From an uncultured Bacteroidota bacterium (lineage in GTDB: Bacteria; Bacteroidota; Bacteroidia; Flavobacteriales_F; PHOS-HE28): a stretch of 38,431 nt of DNA. The notes beneath the pieces are model-generated. The model saw only the letters and a list, made by a program, of their open reading frames with translations. It was not told the origin of the DNA and ran no database searches. Position numbers and translations under genes: made by a program. The DNA lies in contig CADECG010000004.1 of the NCBI GenBank assembly GCA_902825795.1, forward strand, positions 1 to 38,431, given 5' to 3'. Shown one piece after another: positions 2 through 7,848 of the stretch (the stretch's first letter is position 1; every line of letters starts with the position of its first letter).

Positions 2-1498
2 CTTACGCTTTTGCTTTTCGGCGCTTGGGCGATCAACCCCTACACTGATCTGGTGCCTCGACCATGGAAGTGGGGCTTCCTTTTCGCCACCGGTTTCCAT
101 CTGGTGTTCTTCGCCATGGCCGTGGGGTACAACCTGCGCTACAACCTGAAGTTCCGGCCGTTGGAGTTCGCGTTGTTGATCGGCAATACTGCGACGTACT
201 ACGCGGTGGGCATGCACTTCCTTACCGATGCGCCGAGTTACCCGATGCAGAAGTGGACCGGACTCTTCACTGCTGCACTTGGCTTGTTCCACATTGTGTT
301 CGCCTTCGTTTTCTATCGCAGGAAGCAGGTGCCGCGGAACTTGGTGCTGCTTCTCATTGGCCTGGCGCTGACGTTCTGCACCCTTGCGGTGCCAGTGCAA
401 CTGGAAGGCTACACCATCACGATCTTCTGGGCGGCAGAGGCAGTGCTGTTGTTGTGGTTCTCACAACGCGCCGCACTGCCCATGGTGGCCCGTGGCAGCG
501 TGCTCGTAGCAGTCTTGGCCGTGATCAGCTTGCTCATGGACCTCGATGCCTTCTACAGCATTCTGCGACCGGAGCTGCAGCCGATCATCAACCCCGGATG
601 GATCACGGGCATGGTGGTGGTGGTGTGCATGGTCGGCTTGCATTTGCTCTTCCGGCGAGAGAAGGAACAACGCGATGTGCTGCCCGCGATCAGTATCCGG
701 GCATGTGGGGCCGGGGCACTGGTGCTGGCTGTCGCCCTGGGTTATCTCGTTAACCTGTTGGAACTACGCAACCAAAGCGCACGCCTCCTTAGCGTCGATG
801 GTGTGCGCATGGTCACCATGGCGTTCACGCTGGCCTATTTGTTGGGCCTTGACCTCCTAACGCGGCGCGCCGGCAAGCAGGTGCGTGTCGTTGTCTTCGG
901 ACTTAGCATCCTTGCGCTGATCGGCTATGTGACGACCTTCTACGAAGCAAGCAACAACAGCCTGAACGAAATGCTTGCCGCTACCGCACGTGGCTTTGGT
1001 ATTCACTACATCGGACTGGTCTTGGGTGTAGCGCTGGTGGTGCGCGTCGCACAGCAGGCCAGACTTGTCCTGCCACGAGCATCGGGTTTGTGGAGCGCCT
1101 ACCTCTGGCTCATGTGCCTCTTCCTGGTGGTAATGGCCAGCCAAGAACTCGATCACGCGATGTTGTGGGCCAACTACTCCGCTGAAGAGGCGCCTTACCT
1201 CACGCTGAACAACGCTCGCCGTGCTGGCTACCCGATCCTCTGGGGTATCGGCTCCTTCCTATTCATGTGGTACGGTATGCGCACCAAACTGAAAACCGTG
1301 CGGGTGATCGCGTTGGTGCTCTTCGGCATCACGCTGTTGAAGTTGTTCCTCGTGGATCTGCGCGGCATCAGCGAAGGCGGCAAGGTGGCGGCGTTCATCT
1401 GCTTGGGCATCCTGTTGCTTGTGGTCAGTTTCATGTACAACAAACTGAAGGGTTTGTTCGTGGATGAGGACAAGAACAGTGAAGCGGTGAAGCCATGA
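2..1498 (+). CDS. DUF2339 family polytopic membrane protein, 5'-truncated
   Basis: The reading frame is already open at the left edge, so the N-terminus lies outside the window; about 498 codons are visible. The protein is almost entirely hydrophobic helices (well over ten membrane segments). The central stretch with IFWAAEAVLLLWFSQR and the C-terminal stretch with GYPILWGIGSFLFMWYG, then VDLRGISEGGKVAAF, match the recurrent pattern of the DUF2339 predicted membrane protein family. Complete members are usually 800-1000 residues, so roughly half is missing. No function is established for the family; an envelope role is likely. Its stop overlaps the start of the next gene as ATGA, which implies translational coupling. 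Family membership is judged from remembered pattern, not from a search. Confidence 0.82.
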   Translation, partial: LTLLLFGAWAINPYTDLVPRPWKWGFLFATGFHLVFFAMAVGYNLRYNLKFRPLEFALLIGNTATYYAVGMHFLTDAPSYPMQKWTGLFTAALGLFHIVFAFVFYRRKQVPRNLVLLLIGLALTFCTLAVPVQLEGYTITIFWAAEAVLLLWFSQRAALPMVARGSVLVAVLAVISLLMDLDAFYSILRPELQPIINPGWITGMVVVVCMVGLHLLFRREKEQRDVLPAISIRACGAGALVLAVALGYLVNLLELRNQSARLLSVDGVRMVTMAFTLAYLLGLDLLTRRAGKQVRVVVFGLSILALIGYVTTFYEASNNSLNEMLAATARGFGIHYIGLVLGVALVVRVAQQARLVLPRASGLWSAYLWLMCLFLVVMASQELDHAMLWANYSAEEAPYLTLNNARRAGYPILWGIGSFLFMWYGMRTKLKTVRVIALVLFGITLLKLFLVDLRGISEGGKVAAFICLGILLLVVSFMYNKLKGLFVDEDKNSEAVKP

Positions 1499-2754
1499 AG
1501 CAGTGGAGCAGATGGCGGAACATGTTAACGGCTGTGTTGGCGCTGAGCCTTTCGCATTCGCTTGCACAGCAGTGGAAGGCGGAGTTGCCGGCGGTGGAGA
1601 AGGCGGGCATTTACCAGATCTTGTTGTCGCCGGAGATGGTGGGGCGATCGAAAGAGGGGCTGGGGGATCTGAGGCTGGTTGATGATCTGGGCATTCCTGT
1701 TCCGCATGTTTTGGAGATCGCAACGCGGACCGAAACGCGGGAGCTTGTGCCGTTGACGATCATCCGCAATGAGATTTTACCACGGTCGACAGTCGTGGAG
1801 ATCGACAACAAAGGAGGAGGCCATTTGAAGACGATCCACTTGGTGGTGCGGAACGCCAAGGTTATCAAGCGAGTTAGATTGACCGGCAGTGATGATGCGG
1901 CGAACTGGTTCATGCTCGGCGACGAACAGGTAATTCTTTCGGGCGGTGGTGTCGGTGATGCTCCGAACGAGATCCTGCCCATTGCTGTGCCGAGCAGTGA
2001 CCAACGCTACTTCAGGATAGTGATCGATGATTCATTGACCGCTCCGGTGCAGGTGCTCTCGGCCAAGAAGGAGCAGGTCGATCGCGGACGGGAGCAGTTT
2101 GTATCCCATGTACCTCTTGATTGGGAACAGGACGATGGCAGCAGCGAAACACGCCTTCACGTGTACTCCCGTTTCCCTTTCATCGTTGACCGATTGGAAT
2201 TGCCCTGTGGCGGCGACAGTGCGGATATCGATCGCCACTTTCGCCGACCATGCAGATTGGTGCAACGGCAGAACCGGTCCTCCGGTTCGGGGTCGAGGAA
2301 GCGAGTCTGGAACGAGGAGGTGAGCTTGGCCACGTTCACCCTGTCATCGGACAGGGACGAGTTGATAGACCTTGGTGGCATTCGAGTGGATACGTTCGAT
2401 ATTGTTGTCGAGAATGGTGATGACCGCCCGCTGCATTTCATGCACGTTGGGTTGTTTCAGTTGGAGCGTTCTCTAACCGCGGAACTCCAACCCGGCAAGC
2501 GGTACACCCTTACCACCGGCGATCCGAAAAAGTCCGCCCCGCAATACGACATCGTCCACTTCAAAGACAAGCTGCCTGAACCGATCGCCACCATCGCGCA
2601 TGGCCCCCTCATCGCGTTGGCGGCAACGCCGGAAATGGGCCCATCCATTGCGCCATCGCGCTGGTGGATCTGGGCCGGACTTGTCGCGGTGCTCGGCATC
2701 GTGGCCATCATGGCCGTGCGCATGTTGCGCGAACCTCAACAACCAAACGGATAG
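1495..2754 (+). CDS. DUF3999 family exported protein with C-terminal membrane anchor
   Basis: 419 residues. An N-terminal signal peptide (about residues 1-25, ending SHSLAQ) is followed by a beta-rich extracytoplasmic region and one C-terminal transmembrane helix (about 390-412, WWIWAGLVAVLGIVAIMA) with a short basic tail. The opening of the mature protein, with the phrase GLGDLRLVDDLGIPVPHVLE, resembles DUF3999, a family of unknown function often encoded next to DUF2339 proteins. The ATG at 1495 overlaps the DUF2339 stop by four bases. The pair probably forms an envelope complex, with this protein supplying the periplasmic part; that is inference from gene pairing. The T9SS protein gene starts only three bases after its stop. 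Confidence 0.8.
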   Translation: MKQWSRWRNMLTAVLALSLSHSLAQQWKAELPAVEKAGIYQILLSPEMVGRSKEGLGDLRLVDDLGIPVPHVLEIATRTETRELVPLTIIRNEILPRSTVVEIDNKGGGHLKTIHLVVRNAKVIKRVRLTGSDDAANWFMLGDEQVILSGGGVGDAPNEILPIAVPSSDQRYFRIVIDDSLTAPVQVLSAKKEQVDRGREQFVSHVPLDWEQDDGSSETRLHVYSRFPFIVDRLELPCGGDSADIDRHFRRPCRLVQRQNRSSGSGSRKRVWNEEVSLATFTLSSDRDELIDLGGIRVDTFDIVVENGDDRPLHFMHVGLFQLERSLTAELQPGKRYTLTTGDPKKSAPQYDIVHFKDKLPEPIATIAHGPLIALAATPEMGPSIAPSRWWIWAGLVAVLGIVAIMAVRMLREPQQPNG

Positions 2755-2757
2755 CAC

Positions 2758-4611
2758 ATGAACATCAAGACACTGTTCGCGTCGATCATTGGGCGCGCGT
2801 CACAGCAGCGGGCGACGCATGCGTCGCCCCTAAGGGTGCGTTCGTTCGGGATCATGATCGCGACCGCGCTTTGGGCGACGCAGGCGTCGCCCCTTCTCGC
2901 ACAATGCCCCGGTTGTCAGATCAACTTCGGCTGCACCGTTGCGCCCGCGTACCCAACGCTCTGTCCGCTACAACCGGCCGATGCCACCAGCGGGCAACCG
3001 TACAGCGCCGACATCACCTTCTGGATGCCGGTGAACTTCGATGATCCCGGAACTGGCTTCAATGTGGACTTCCTGCAAATGACGATCACCGGCGTATCCG
3101 GCTTGCCCTTCGGACTGGAGATCGAAACCAACGACCCGCTGGGCATCTATTACCCGCAGCAGAACCAGTTCGGCTGTGCGCGGATTTGTGGCACACCACT
3201 GGGCGCGGGCACGTTCACGGTCACCATCTCCATCATCGCACAGGTGGAGTACAGCGGGTTCATCATCAATGCGCCGCAGCAGTTCCCGATCACGCTGGTG
3301 GTGTTGCCAGGCAGTGGGGGCAATAGTGGTTTCTCCTTCACACCGACCAATGGTTGCGGAAGTGCCGATGTGCAGTTCGCGGCGTTGATCGATGGCGCAC
3401 CCGATCCGACGACGTACGCTTGGGACTTCGGCAACGGCAACACGGGCAGCGACGCAATGCCGCCTGTGCAGACCTACGGAAGTCCGGGTACATACACCGT
3501 GTCGTTGCAGACGACGATCGGCGGTTATGTGTTGGATGTGGTAACGCTGAGCGGGGTGAACGACAACTGGTGCGGAGACGTGGAAGAGCCGGACATCTTC
3601 GGCTGCACGGGATCACCGGATCTGTACTTCGTGCTCACCGATGGCGGCGGCGGAACATACACCAGCGGTAGCGGCAGTGACAACGGCAGCGAAACTTGGA
3701 CCGGTCTCGGCCTGGTGCTCAACAACCCGCCGTACTCCATTGCCTTCTACGACGAAGATCCGATCAGCCAGGACGACATCCTCGGTACGTTGAACATTCC
3801 GATCGGCACGGTGGGCAATTTGCCATTCAATATTGCGGGTGGAACATTCGGCAGCATCGATATCAGCCTGCAGACGCAACAGCTGTTCAACGATACGGAC
3901 ACCGTGGTCGTTTATCCTGTTCCGGAGATCGTACTCGGTTTCGACACCGCTGCTGCCGAGATCTGCGCAGGCGACACAACGCTCGTCAGCTACACGTGGT
4001 ACAACAACGGCGATACGGTACCCATGGCGAACGGCCCTTGCGTGAACGCCAATGCCCCCGGACTTTGGTGGGGCACGGGAACGAACGGTTTTGGTTGCTT
4101 CGGCTCCAGCGATACGGTGGTGGTGTGCCCATCGCTCGCGATCGACTACGATGCGGGCGTACTGTTCGTTGATGATGTGTTCGATGGTTACGAATGGACG
4201 TTCGATGGTGTGCCCATCAACAACAACGACCAGCCATTTGCATTCTCACAAGGCGATGGACTTTACACGATCAACGGCACAACCACCTACGGGTGCGTCG
4301 TCACCGACACCTTCACGCTGAGCACCTTGGGCATTGCGGCGGTCGACCCGTCAACACCGTCGCTCCTTGTGTACCCGGTTCCCAACGACGGCAACTTCGC
4401 CGTGCAGGCGAACGGCCTGACTTCGTCCGAAGTGTTGTTGCGCGTTCTGGATACCAGCGGGAAGGATGTTCTCGCTGAGCGATGCACAGTCTTTGGAGGG
4501 ACCATCGGCGTGCGCGTTGCGTTGCGCGGAGCCCCCGCCGGTCGGTATCTGGTGGTGGTCGAGGATGGAACCGCGCGCCACTTGACGCGTGCCATCGTTG
4601 TAACGAAATGA
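2758..4611 (+). CDS. Secreted PKD / C2-like protein with T9SS type A sorting domain
   Basis: 617 residues from the ATG at 2758, three bases after the preceding stop. The leader is unusually long: a basic stretch, then a hydrophobic run ending SPLLAQ near residue 48; a shorter start at 2854 would remove nearly all of the basic region. Residues about 198-264 form a PKD domain ([13 protein letters not shown], then GTYTVSL). Residues about 280-380 look like a C2 domain (PDLYFVLTD, then [19 protein letters not shown]), which is an inference. The C-terminus (about 536-617) has the T9SS type A layout: [30 protein letters not shown] and a final basic VVTK. It is therefore probably exported through the outer membrane by T9SS and attached to the surface or released. 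The substrate is unknown. Two palindromic repeats lie in the leader codons. Confidence 0.85.
2810..2829. repeat. Perfect 20-base palindrome (REP-like), copy 1
   Basis: The bases gggcgacgcatgcgtcgccc equal their own reverse complement. They lie inside the leader codons of the T9SS protein gene and encode the core ATHASP. A near-identical copy starts 63 bases (21 codons) downstream in the same frame. GC-rich palindromes of this type occur as dispersed elements in many environmental bacterial genomes, but spread in this genome cannot be judged from one window. Confidence 0.75.
2873..2892. repeat. Near-perfect copy 2 of the 20-base palindrome
   Basis: gggcgacgcaggcgtcgccc differs from copy 1 at a single base (t to g at the eleventh position), which breaks only the centre of the dyad. 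It encodes ATQASP in the same frame as the ATHASP of copy 1 and sits at the end of the signal peptide, just before the likely cleavage region. Confidence 0.7.
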
Positions 4612-4645: not shown

Positions 4646-5344
4646 ATGAACAAAGTAGTCTCCGGTCCGGACGTTGCCCTCGAAGGCCTCACCGATGGCA
4701 TGACCTTGATGGTCGGTGGTTTCGGCCTGTGCGGTATCCCCGAGAACACGATCGCGGCCTTGGTGCGCAAAGGCGTGAAGAACCTTACATGCATCAGCAA
4801 CAACGCCGGGGTGGATGACTTCGGTTTGGGCCTGCTGTTACAGAGCAAGCAGATCAAGAAGATGATCAGCAGTTACGTGGGCGAGAACGCCGAGTTCGAG
4901 CGCCAGATGCTCAGCGGTGAATTGGAGGTGGACCTGATCCCGCAAGGGTCGTTGGCCGAACGTTGCCGTGCCGGTGGCGCGGGCATCCCGGCATTCTTTA
5001 CACCAGCTGGTTACGGAACGGAAGTCGCGGAGGGAAAGGAAGTGCGCGAGTTCAACGGCAAGCCGCACATCCTGGAAAGCTGGCTGCGTGCCGACTTCGC
5101 TATCGTGAAAGCATGGAAGGGTGATACGAGCGGGAACTTGGTGTACAAGCGTACGGCCCGCAACTTCAACCCGATGATGGCCATGGCGGGTAAGATCACC
5201 ATTGCCGAAGTGGAGCACTTGGTGAAGCCGGGCGAGATCGATCCCGATGCCGTGCATACCCCGGGGATCTTCGTTCAACGCATTTTCCAAGGCAGCAACT
5301 ACGAGAAGCGTATTGAGCAGCGGACGGTGAGGAAGAGGATGTGA
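4646..5344 (+). CDS. scoA: 3-oxoacid CoA-transferase subunit A (SCOT alpha)
   Basis: 232 residues, the normal length for the alpha subunit. With subunit B it transfers CoA from succinyl-CoA to acetoacetate, linking ketone-body or polyhydroxybutyrate breakdown and amino acid catabolism to the TCA cycle. The class I CoA-transferase signature is plain near the N-terminus ([19 protein letters not shown]), followed by the conserved [11 protein letters not shown] and [16 protein letters not shown] stretches and [13 protein letters not shown]. The ATG at 4646 lies 34 bases after the T9SS protein. Unusually, the beta subunit is not next: a membrane glycosyltransferase gene intervenes, and its earliest possible start (GTG at 5341) overlaps this stop by four bases. 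Confidence 0.95.
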
Positions 5345-5367
5345 TCCGTGACGATCGCCAACGGCGC

Positions 5368-7128
5368 ATGAGCGGCAACGACCGAAAGCTGTACTTCCTA
5401 TTGGCCTTGGTCGTGTTCGGCTACGTTCTCGCACGTGCGGTGCTCGTCCCTTTCGTTCACGATGAGGCGGCAACGTTCAGCATGTACGTGCAGTTCGGGG
5501 AATTCCTGCCCTGGCGGTCCCACTGGGATGCGGGTAACCACTTCCTGAACACGGCCCTTGGGATAGTTGGGTACAAGCTTTTTGGCATGGAGCAGCTGGC
5601 TATCCGCGCTGGGAATGTGTTGGCGTTCGTGCTGTATGCTTGGATGGCCTGGCACCTTGGCGGACAGGTGCGCGAGCGGCTGGTGCGTTGGTGCTTGTGG
5701 TTGGCATTGTTGCTCTGCCCGTTCCTGCTGGAGTTTTTCTCGCTGTTCCGTGGCTATGGTCTGGAAATGGCCTTCTTCGTTTGGGCGCTGCATGCGTTTC
5801 TGTCGTTCGCGCGCGACGGTCGTGTTGGGCAATTCGTGCAAGTCCTCCTTGCATTGTGCTTGGCCAACGCGAGCATCCTTGCATTGCTCCCGTTCTGGGC
5901 GATCGTGCTCGGACTGTTGGCGATCATGATCGGATCTGGTCAGCATACCCGGATCATACGTGCCCGACTTTCCTTGGCGTGGGTCGTGTTCGGTGCGCTG
6001 CCGCTGCTGCTCGCTGCGCGCATCGCCGTGGAGATGCAGGAGATCGGCCTATTGTACCACGGGAACACACTGGGCTTTGTTGCGGTTACCGTTTCCACCT
6101 TAAGCTGGTTCGCCTTGGGAAGTCAGCATCCCCTGTTGATCGGCGCGCTGATCATCGGGTTCAGTTCAATGACCGTGGTCACGGCCGGGATCATCCGCCG
6201 CGAGCGATCGTTCCGCCATCCGTTGGTGATCATCATCGGCCTGCTTTGGGCTGAAGTGCTGGCGCGTGTTTTCATGGCCACCGTGCTGCATGTGAACTAC
6301 CCGGAGGATCGCGCCGCGCTCCATCTGGTTCCCCTGTTCGTGTTCGCACTTGCGCTGTGTGTTGATGAACTCGGTATTCGGAATGTGCTGTGGCGTTATG
6401 CAGCGTTGCTATTGCTTTTCCTACCCGTTCGCTCACTTGCATTGTTTAATCTGGACCACACGGTTCTCTGGGCAGACCAATCGCCACCAACCCGCTTCAT
6501 TGATCGGTTGATCGCCATGCAAGCCGCTCAGGAAAGGCCATTGGCCATTGGTGCTTATCACCTGATGAACCGTAGCCTGCCATTCGCCGTGCGCGTGCGA
6601 GGTGAACAATTGCCGCTGCCGATCACGGATGGTTTTCCCATGGGCGCGCACGATGTGCGCATTGCCCGTCAGGACCATTTGCAACAAGCGCTCAACGGAT
6701 TCCATGAAGTGGATCATGACAAGGGGACCGGGTTACATCTCTTGGAAAGGAACGAGGCACTGCAGCTGACCCCTTTAACGACGAATGCCTTTGAGCGGAA
6801 AACCACCAGTGACGAGTTCATCGAGATCTTCAAGTTGGACAGCGCGCTGGGTGATCGGGAGTTCTTGGTGGAAGTCACAGGTGATCTGGTCACGACCGAT
6901 GCCGCAGCCGTGAAGCTGGTGGTGGAACTCCGCGATGCCTCGGACAAGTCGATCCATTACGATGCCGCCATGGTCACGGTTTTCGCTCCGTTGTCCGTGC
7001 AGCTGAGGGAGGTACGTCACATTCCAGCTTTGCCGGAAGCGCGCAGTGCCGTGGTCTATTTCTGGAATGTGCGTCGGACGGCACTGACCTTGACCAATGG
7101 CGCAGTAAGACTCAATCAGGTTGAGTAG
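5368..7128 (+). CDS. GT-C-type membrane glycosyltransferase-like protein, family A paralogue 1
   Basis: 586 residues from the ATG at 5368; a GTG at 5341 overlapping the scoA stop (GTGA) would add nine residues. The N-terminal two thirds is polytopic. After the first helix comes an acidic motif, VHDEAATFS, as in GT39/ArnT-like GT-C enzymes, where an Asp-Glu pair in the first periplasmic loop is catalytic. Then come NHFLNT, an LRxGN-like AIRAGNVLAF, and FFSLFRGYG, all shared with the proteins at 10643 and 20742(-). EDRAALHLVPL recurs in them as well. The last 120 or so residues are soluble and beta-rich (YFWNVRRTALTLTN near the end). The likely reaction is periplasmic transfer of a sugar from a polyprenyl phosphate to an unknown acceptor. 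It splits scoA from scoB. Confidence 0.75.
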   Translation: MSGNDRKLYFLLALVVFGYVLARAVLVPFVHDEAATFSMYVQFGEFLPWRSHWDAGNHFLNTALGIVGYKLFGMEQLAIRAGNVLAFVLYAWMAWHLGGQVRERLVRWCLWLALLLCPFLLEFFSLFRGYGLEMAFFVWALHAFLSFARDGRVGQFVQVLLALCLANASILALLPFWAIVLGLLAIMIGSGQHTRIIRARLSLAWVVFGALPLLLAARIAVEMQEIGLLYHGNTLGFVAVTVSTLSWFALGSQHPLLIGALIIGFSSMTVVTAGIIRRERSFRHPLVIIIGLLWAEVLARVFMATVLHVNYPEDRAALHLVPLFVFALALCVDELGIRNVLWRYAALLLLFLPVRSLALFNLDHTVLWADQSPPTRFIDRLIAMQAAQERPLAIGAYHLMNRSLPFAVRVRGEQLPLPITDGFPMGAHDVRIARQDHLQQALNGFHEVDHDKGTGLHLLERNEALQLTPLTTNAFERKTTSDEFIEIFKLDSALGDREFLVEVTGDLVTTDAAAVKLVVELRDASDKSIHYDAAMVTVFAPLSVQLREVRHIPALPEARSAVVYFWNVRRTALTLTNGAVRLNQVE

Positions 7129-7191: not shown

Positions 7192-7848
7192 ATGCCCCTC
7201 GACAAGAACCAGATGGCCAAGCGCATTGCGCGCGAACTACAGCACGGGTACTACGTGAACCTCGGCATCGGCATCCCTACTCTGGTGGCCAACTATGTGC
7301 CCGAAGGCATCGACGTGGTGTTTCAAAGCGAGAACGGTATCCTGGGTATGGGACCCTTTCCGTACGAAGGCGAGGAGGACGCCGACCTGATCAACGCAGG
7401 CAAGCAGACGGTGACCTTGCTCGATGGTGCCAGCATCTTCGATAGTGCGACCAGTTTCGCCATGATCCGTGGACAGCATGTGCAGCTCACGGTGCTGGGA
7501 GCCATGGAGATCACCGACCAAGGCGATATCGCCAACTGGAAGATCCCCGGCAAGATGGTGAAGGGCATGGGCGGTGCCATGGATCTGGTGGCGAGCGCGG
7601 AGAACATCATTGTCTGCATGCTGCACACCAACAAGGCGGGCGAGAGCAAGTTGTTGAAGGAGTGCACGCTGCCGCTCACGGGTGTGAAGTGTGTGAAGAA
7701 GGTCGTGACGGATCTCGGGGTATTCGACATCACACCCGAAGGCTTCAAACTGTTGGAGCGCGCGCCCGGCGTTTCCGTGGACGAGATCAAGGCGAAGACC
7801 GAGGGCCGATTAGTGGTGGAGGGGGAGGTGCCGGAGATGGTGATCTGA
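7192..7848 (+). CDS. scoB: 3-oxoacid CoA-transferase subunit B (SCOT beta)
   Basis: 218 residues, full length for the family. The beta subunit carries the catalytic glutamate in the class I signature, seen here as VFQSENGILGMGP (the Glu of SENG forms the glutamyl-CoA thioester). Also typical are LGIGIPTLVANYVPEG at the N-terminus, the GxMEITDQGDIANWKIPG region and DLGVFDITPEGFKLLE near the end. The start at 7192 is the ATG after a short pyrimidine-rich leader. It should form a heterodimer or heterotetramer with the product of scoA, about 1.85 kb upstream. The two are normally adjacent, so the intervening glycosyltransferase gene is odd; both subunits look intact. Confidence 0.95.
   Translation: MPLDKNQMAKRIARELQHGYYVNLGIGIPTLVANYVPEGIDVVFQSENGILGMGPFPYEGEEDADLINAGKQTVTLLDGASIFDSATSFAMIRGQHVQLTVLGAMEITDQGDIANWKIPGKMVKGMGGAMDLVASAENIIVCMLHTNKAGESKLLKECTLPLTGVKCVKKVVTDLGVFDITPEGFKLLERAPGVSVDEIKAKTEGRLVVEGEVPEMVI

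Follow-up and report, generated by a model that had tools for sequence, protein, structure and literature searches.

A palindrome pair at the 5′ end of a putative exported-protein gene and its kinship with a dispersed family of 20-bp palindromes in an uncultured Bacteroidota bacterium

The palindrome pair and its host gene

The window analysed here is a stretch of 38,431 nucleotides from the genome of an uncultured Bacteroidota bacterium, a draft of 3.92 Mb in 260 contigs that is 93.5% complete. Positions 2758..4611 (plus strand) hold an ORF of 617 aa when read from ATG2758, in which a leader is followed by a PKD domain and, at the C-terminus, by a weak T9SS sorting domain, and a DUF3999-like gene upstream (1495..2754, plus strand) ends 3 nt before ATG2758. 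The PKD domain scored above the curated cut-off, while the C-terminus of the host protein reached 20.8 bits against Por_Secre_tail (PF18962; cut-off 27, E 0.00048) and 21.8 bits against TIGR04183 (cut-off 23, E 0.00014), and the T9SS label suggested by these matches is a weak one. Further downstream, 4646-5344 and 7192-7848 presumably encode both subunits of a 3-oxoacid CoA-transferase, and a membrane-protein gene (5341-7128) splits these two genes.

Two near-identical palindromes lie in the first part of the ORF. Copy 1 (GGGCGACGCATGCGTCGCCC, 2810..2829) is a perfect 20-bp palindrome with 10/10 pairs, and copy 2 (GGGCGACGCAGGCGTCGCCC, 2873..2892) differs from it by one mismatch. The distance from start to start is 63 nt, and the 43-nt spacer in between (2830..2872, plus strand) codes for most of a hydrophobic core (12 residues). 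In the frame of the ORF, copy 1 reads (R)ATHASP(L) and copy 2 reads (W)ATQASP(L). A scan of the window with up to 3 mismatches returned 4 matches, which are the same two places counted on both strands, while 100 dinucleotide-preserving shuffles of the window gave a mean of 0.05 matches and none of them reached 4. The palindrome pair is not a product of chance, and its position, pairing and behaviour in the shuffles confirm the two in-frame copies 63 nt apart that a preliminary description of this DNA had reported. In a predicted fold, the copies also pair across the 43-nt spacer, which would enclose an in-frame GTG at 2836. A tandem duplication of a 63-bp unit was rejected by eye, because the flanks of the two copies are dissimilar. 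Insertion of a fixed dimer of ~84 nt as a single unit would agree with the arithmetic of leader lengths (48 - 28 residues = 20, near the orthologue leaders); since the spacings of other pairs in this genome vary (28, 30, 45 and 102 nt), the fixed dimer is kept here as a guess.

Three candidate starts precede a conserved Q-C in the host protein: ATG2758 by 48 residues, the in-frame GTG2836 (2836..2838, plus strand) by 22 and ATG2854 by 16. Their start-context scores are 2.49, -0.79 and -2.89, respectively, compared with a reference of 0.84 (sd 1.74) for 362 called ATG starts; the gene calls came from a simple codon-usage script, not a published gene finder, and the called starts are approximate. 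Codons 1-17 from ATG2758 are coding-like (score 4.1), and the calls for this genome comprise 362 ATG and 71 GTG starts. A presumed Sec signal peptide stretch of 23 residues (2836..2904, plus strand), recognized by eye and from orthologue leaders, is common to ATG2758 and GTG2836, the two favoured starts. Copy 2 is translated under each of them, while copy 1 would be untranslated if GTG2836 is used.

Orthologues covering the post-leader region were found in 19 of the 34 other genomes of the genus, at 48-57% identity. The leaders are not alignable even with the best orthologue (57%), so a site without the element is not visible for the host gene. Loci from additional named genomes lie at the same level of identity as the best orthologue, and four of these seven added loci (L153, L154, L155 and L157) were left uncounted as apparent duplicates of contigs already covered. 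In 18/19 orthologues the conserved Q-C is preceded by an ATG at a distance of 18-24 codons, and in the remaining one the distance is 32 codons. No GGGC palindrome was found near the leader in any of the 19 (scanned over 250 nt upstream and 40 nt downstream of Q-C). The orthologue comparison proposed in the preliminary description thus returned leaders that are different, shorter and palindrome-free.

A dispersed palindrome family

The 16-bp core of the window palindromes, GCGACGCANGCGTCGC, has no further occurrence anywhere in the draft genome. A loosened pattern led to a family of exactly 20-bp palindromes, GGGC-N12-GCCC, often in the form GTAN-GGGC-N12-GCCC-CAAC. We found GTAN-GGGC-N12-GCCC at 20 places in the genome versus 2 for the control, and although nothing in the pattern constrains the 12 central bases, all 20 tagged elements are palindromic (at least 7/8 stem pairs). 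The tags are GTAC in ten, GTAG in four, GTAA in four and GTAT in two, and CAAC represents the commonest following bases (12/26 rows, some elements being shown twice). The narrower pattern GGGCGA-N8-TCGCCC occurs at 17 places versus 0 for the reversed control, which is the highest number in the genus; the 34 other genomes hold 0-12 such places, often close to the control. In the whole-genome search suggested at the outset, the exact core is confined to the window and the loosened family is dispersed, and the proposal of a REP-like repeat was borne out. Ordinary coding sequence, which would have shown itself by the same leader in orthologues whose genomes have no palindrome elsewhere, is not what we observed, since the leaders differ and the family is dispersed. 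In the open-licence literature, as far as the available portions of the texts go, we found no description of a GGGC-N12-GCCC family.

Family membership of the window pair was assessed with a covariance model trained on the 20 tagged elements, with the window copies left out of training. Copy 1 scored 22.6 bits on the minus strand (2802-2833) and 21.9 bits on the plus strand (2810-2830), and copy 2 scored 22.0 bits and 18.7 bits on the minus and plus strands, with E-values over 838 kb of 0.0017 for copy 1 and 0.0026 for copy 2. Both copies are without the GTAN tag and the CAAC tail, and TTAG and GAAG stand at the place of the tag. These results show that the palindrome body of the window pair belongs to the dispersed family.

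A sample of 838,431 bases, made up of the window and 40 stretches of the same genome, contained 16 GGGC-N12-GCCC palindromes with at least 7/8 pairs, compared with 0-4 in five block shuffles. Eleven of the 16 are intergenic though 89% of the sample was called coding, and the remaining five lie in genes: both window copies, plus three weak, chance-looking matches which show that looser GGGC palindromes can turn up by chance. Among the loci fetched from this genome, 4/14 well-paired GGGCGA palindromes lie in called genes, namely the two window copies, one at the N-terminus of a chelatase-like gene (L006) and one in L049.

The tagged elements are almost all intergenic (19, with one in a weak ORF), and with orientation taken from the GTAN tag, 18/19 are followed by a gene in sense. 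Given that 473/682 adjacent gene pairs in the sample are co-directional, the co-direction of the neighbouring genes is unsurprising; it is the sense orientation that is the surprise. A called start lies no more than 36 nt past the palindrome in 13/18 (16, 15, 14, 5, 14, 25, 19, 17, 36, 20, 26, 29 and 7 nt), and the other five distances are 45, 59, 74, 52 and 131 nt, with another element intervening in some cases. Of seven elements separated by more than 90 nt from the gene behind them, six are followed by a start at a distance of 14-29 nt. At L212 1501 (G000:C23:16195), the preceding gene ends on a TAG stop codon that is part of the GTAG tag of an element.

The presence of an element at one site varies between species. 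The rplA-rplJ gap measures 15-23 nt in 19 and 30-52 nt in 10 of 29 same-genus loci; a palindrome with at least 7/8 pairs stands in four of the 29, and the gap of 42 nt in the genome of the window is occupied by GTAC-GGGCCGATGATCATCGGCCC-CAAC. Palindromes also lie between genes of a ribosomal-protein operon at L135 13411, 14355, 14383 and 15632 (G000:C25), in gaps that, to judge from the translations, we take to be tuf-like/secE, nusG/rplK and rplA/rplJ.

G050, a class-level relative with a genome of 2.0 Mb, carries 46 copies of GGGCGA-N8-TCGCCC versus 0 in the control, a number that no genome within the genus comes near. The genome of the window also contains a second dispersed hairpin family, CCCTTCTCC/CCCCTCTCC-NNN-GGAGAGGGG (L095 2593; L102 5205 and 5289; L106 9592; L108 2461, 4828 and 5732; L110 18414).

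In-frame copies in related genomes

Further in-frame copies were found in the genus, in a chelatase-like gene, in MoaE and in a DnaE-like ORF, in agreement with the earlier proposal of a palindrome inside coding sequence. In the chelatase-like AAA gene, 8/12 same-genus loci scanned share an element at one and the same position, while the other four (L162, L163, L168 and L171) have no palindrome at this site, nor has any of five loci outside the genus. The scan left out L178, a second locus of G015, and the truncated locus L177. An ATG follows the element by 4-11 nt in 5/8 loci. In the other three, including that of the window's own genome, no ATG, GTG or TTG lies between the element and the conserved TLGELK, indicating that the element is read in frame; in one of these three a GTG lies inside the palindrome itself. 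The split of five versus three indicates that both outcomes, untranslated and in-frame, occur in the genus.

The loop of MoaE (molybdopterin synthase) between FLGQVRAD and AIEYTAY is a hotspot for in-frame palindromes. Among 31 loci scanned, the loop was not found in two, and a palindrome was present in 7 of the remaining 29 same-genus loci, with a degraded form (6/8 pairs) in one more, L187; L184, which has a different palindrome with 7/8 pairs, is excluded from the count. The in-frame palindromes, in L069, L179, L181, L186, L187, L190, L191 and L192, occupy two positions in two frames, and therefore probably represent two separate entries. The MoaE flanks of G031 and G020 are 97% identical (331/341 bases), and the palindrome centres (GATGCATGCATC and GGAGGATCCTCC) show six differences that amount to three paired changes. 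The same loop holds other repeat-like inserts, of the CAACCAACAACTGGCAACTG type, in L180, L182 and L183.

The DnaE-like ORF of G006 (L084 1184-3019, G006:C159, minus strand) reads through GTAG-GGGCGAAACATGTTTCGCCC-CTAC. Two further repeat-like segments, NNEQRSTDNRQLATDNQQLTTD and SPITSDHSPITSH, occur in the same ORF. In the fetched loci of relatives, 10/22 well-paired GGGCGA palindromes lie in called genes, most of which look like chance matches (7/8 pairs, no tag); close inspection of the in-gene palindromes of relatives covered L059, L069 and L084 only.

Origin of the window pair and kinship with known elements

It is probable that the window pair consists of two members of a genus-specific palindrome family that landed at the 5′ end of an exported-protein gene. 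The family has its usual home between genes, in sense orientation and just before a start codon, with a presence at any one site that depends on the species. An element would have landed in this lineage at the 5′ end of the host gene, and was probably duplicated locally. Copy 2 encodes ATQASP between the hydrophobic core and the cleavage end of the presumed signal peptide, the spacer and copy 2 would now supply this core and cleavage end, and the product may be a working leader. Copy 1 would be either an untranslated leader element 6 nt before GTG2836 or part of a long N-terminal extension from ATG2758. Frame-keeping copies may survive in leaders and surface loops because composition matters there more than sequence. 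Against this explanation stand the missing tag and tail of both window copies, an orthologue identity of at most 57%, too distant to reveal an empty site, a search of the genome that found no transposase, the three weak in-gene matches as examples of looser GGGC palindromes arising by chance, and the draft state of the genome.

The two start readings are branches of this one explanation, and the evidence is split about evenly between them. If the start is mis-set and GTG2836 is used, copy 1 would be an ordinary intergenic leader element, the leader would have 22 residues and only copy 2 would be coding. The short leaders of 18/19 orthologues favour GTG2836, as does the habit of the family, since copy 1 would then stand 6 nt before the start, like the 13/18 members that lie 5-36 nt before a called start and the five chelatase-like elements followed closely by ATG. 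Di Nocera, De Gregorio and Rocco (2013, PMC3733652) caution that many of the REPs assigned to the N-termini of genes may in truth lie outside them. However, GTG2836 has a poor context score, is preceded by coding-like codons, belongs to the rarer type of start and sits inside the predicted fold of the pair. If ATG2758 is used, which we judge neither more nor less probable, both copies would be translated in a leader of ~48 residues, in line with the context score, codons 1-17, an upstream stop only 3 nt away and the three chelatase-like elements that are start-less before TLGELK; but the longest orthologue leader has 32 residues, and the extension places several basic residues and another short hydrophobic stretch ahead of the core. 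The leader of about 48 residues given in the preliminary description thus holds only if ATG2758 is used, and of its two copies inside the leader, copy 2 stands under both readings while copy 1 depends on the start.

An RNA element under hairpin selection in the 5′ leader, acting on translation or mRNA stability, could also explain the paired centres, and we regard it as a rather doubtful alternative to insertion of a DNA family. The start-side position and sense orientation in 18/19 and predicted hairpins of about -16 kcal/mol are consistent with such an element. Both-sided changes occupy 10/64 stem cells at the chelatase-like sites and again 10/64 at the MoaE sites, a number that 0/500 shuffles reach at either site; these counts lean towards pairing because the register is set by the palindrome and the letters were chosen for pairing. 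In contrast, G-U occurs in only 1/160 stem cells of the 20 elements, and at the ninth pair, where only a two-base loop would be left to close, all 20 are complementary. Since RNA cannot close a two-base loop, the ninth pair is read as symmetry kept in DNA, and RNA selection as the sole cause of the paired centres is weakened by both results. Moreover, paired turnover is also found within the MoaE coding sequence, and a search of the window against Rfam at gathering thresholds returned nothing. We infer that the symmetry of the palindromes is upheld at the DNA level, for example by template switching, which fits the paired centres, although exchange with other copies may explain them likewise. 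Template switching is a known route by which stems are created and repaired (PMC8794818), with paired multi-base changes and few G-U intermediates as in our elements; the stems described there are in RNA genes, whereas ours are intergenic elements and a protein gene, to which the mechanism may be extended.

A canonical GTAG REP that owes its mobility to a RAYT transposase, the type of enzyme that the preliminary description had suggested looking for, is an unlikely source of the family. In PMC3733652, GTAG-tagged REPs are stem-loops of 20-40 bp in many copies with a GTA-type end and alternative complementary stem residues, mostly intergenic, with some copies in genes, including replication genes, and some at N-termini with a doubtful start. 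The size, copy number, dispersal (20 versus 2 for the control, 16 versus 0-4 in shuffles) and occasional in-gene copies of our family match this description, the tag is GTAG in 4/20, and Y1_Tnp (PF01797) is present in 28/34 other genomes of the genus. However, GTAC is the commonest tag (10/20), so that the family is GTAN rather than GTAG, and G-U pairs, frequent in the published REPs, are almost missing here. The elements are intergenic in 19/20 but lie start-side and in sense, whereas canonical REPs are predominantly downstream of coding regions. Y1_Tnp was not found in the draft genome of the window, the richest of the genus in GGGCGA copies, and no GGG-ended palindrome, the only type scanned for, adjoins the gene in 14 Y1/RAYT regions of relatives picked from a much longer match list. 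RAYT as the driver was rejected on these two results. The GTAG families listed in the available part of PMC3733652 come from Proteobacteria, Cyanobacteria, Chloroflexi and PVC, and none from Bacteroidetes. TnpA-Y1/RAYT genes accompanied by hairpin repeats are known from Bacteroidetes (subclasses 2.4 and 2.6; PMC6006769); in the genome of the window no such gene was found, and the 14 regions of relatives had no palindrome of this kind beside theirs. REPs inside genes have published precedent in PMC3733652, and an in-frame palindrome lacking in orthologues is what we observed for copy 2 (0/19) and in MoaE (7/29). In its way of working the family resembles an intragenic REP, but tag, location and transposase all set it apart from the canonical GTAG type.

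Two other systems share the coding palindrome. Rickettsia palindromic elements (RPE), as cited in PMC3733652, are palindromic repeats in frame within protein genes, and RPE-4 and RPE-6 are CGTC-tagged; the family described here differs by its GTAN tag, its GGGC/GCCC ends and its usual home just before start codons. Nematomorpha mitochondria keep perfect inverted repeats in protein-coding genes (PMC6649704), but these measure up to 284 bp and encode conserved protein regions, whereas ours have 20 bp and lie in leaders and loops. Finally, chance palindromes in ordinary coding sequence, which have nothing but the open frame in their favour, are strongly disfavoured to the point of near-exclusion by the shuffles, the dispersed family and the residues absent from orthologues.

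Beyond the genus-specific family and its two members in the window, we tentatively propose a wider reading, which we hold to be possible rather than probable: a start-proximal, sense-oriented 20-bp family may be upheld at the DNA level, with its GGGC/GCCC ends fixed and its centre freely rewritten yet paired, through template switching or element exchange, and may repeatedly slip into reading frames, rewriting several residues with frame and length kept and forming part of a new signal peptide in the window. If this is true, peptide segments would have in the family a small source that renews itself, and the family might in addition influence translation as a leader element. Coding palindromes are usually put down to rare accidents of mobile REPs, whereas here a start-side sense family enters frames several times in one genus. 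The MoaE pair, with 97%-identical flanks and different paired centres, makes it testable how a palindrome is rewritten with pairing, length and frame kept, and whether the family adds new leader and loop peptides is likewise testable. A practical caution is that where starts are called automatically, proteins may be lengthened across such elements.
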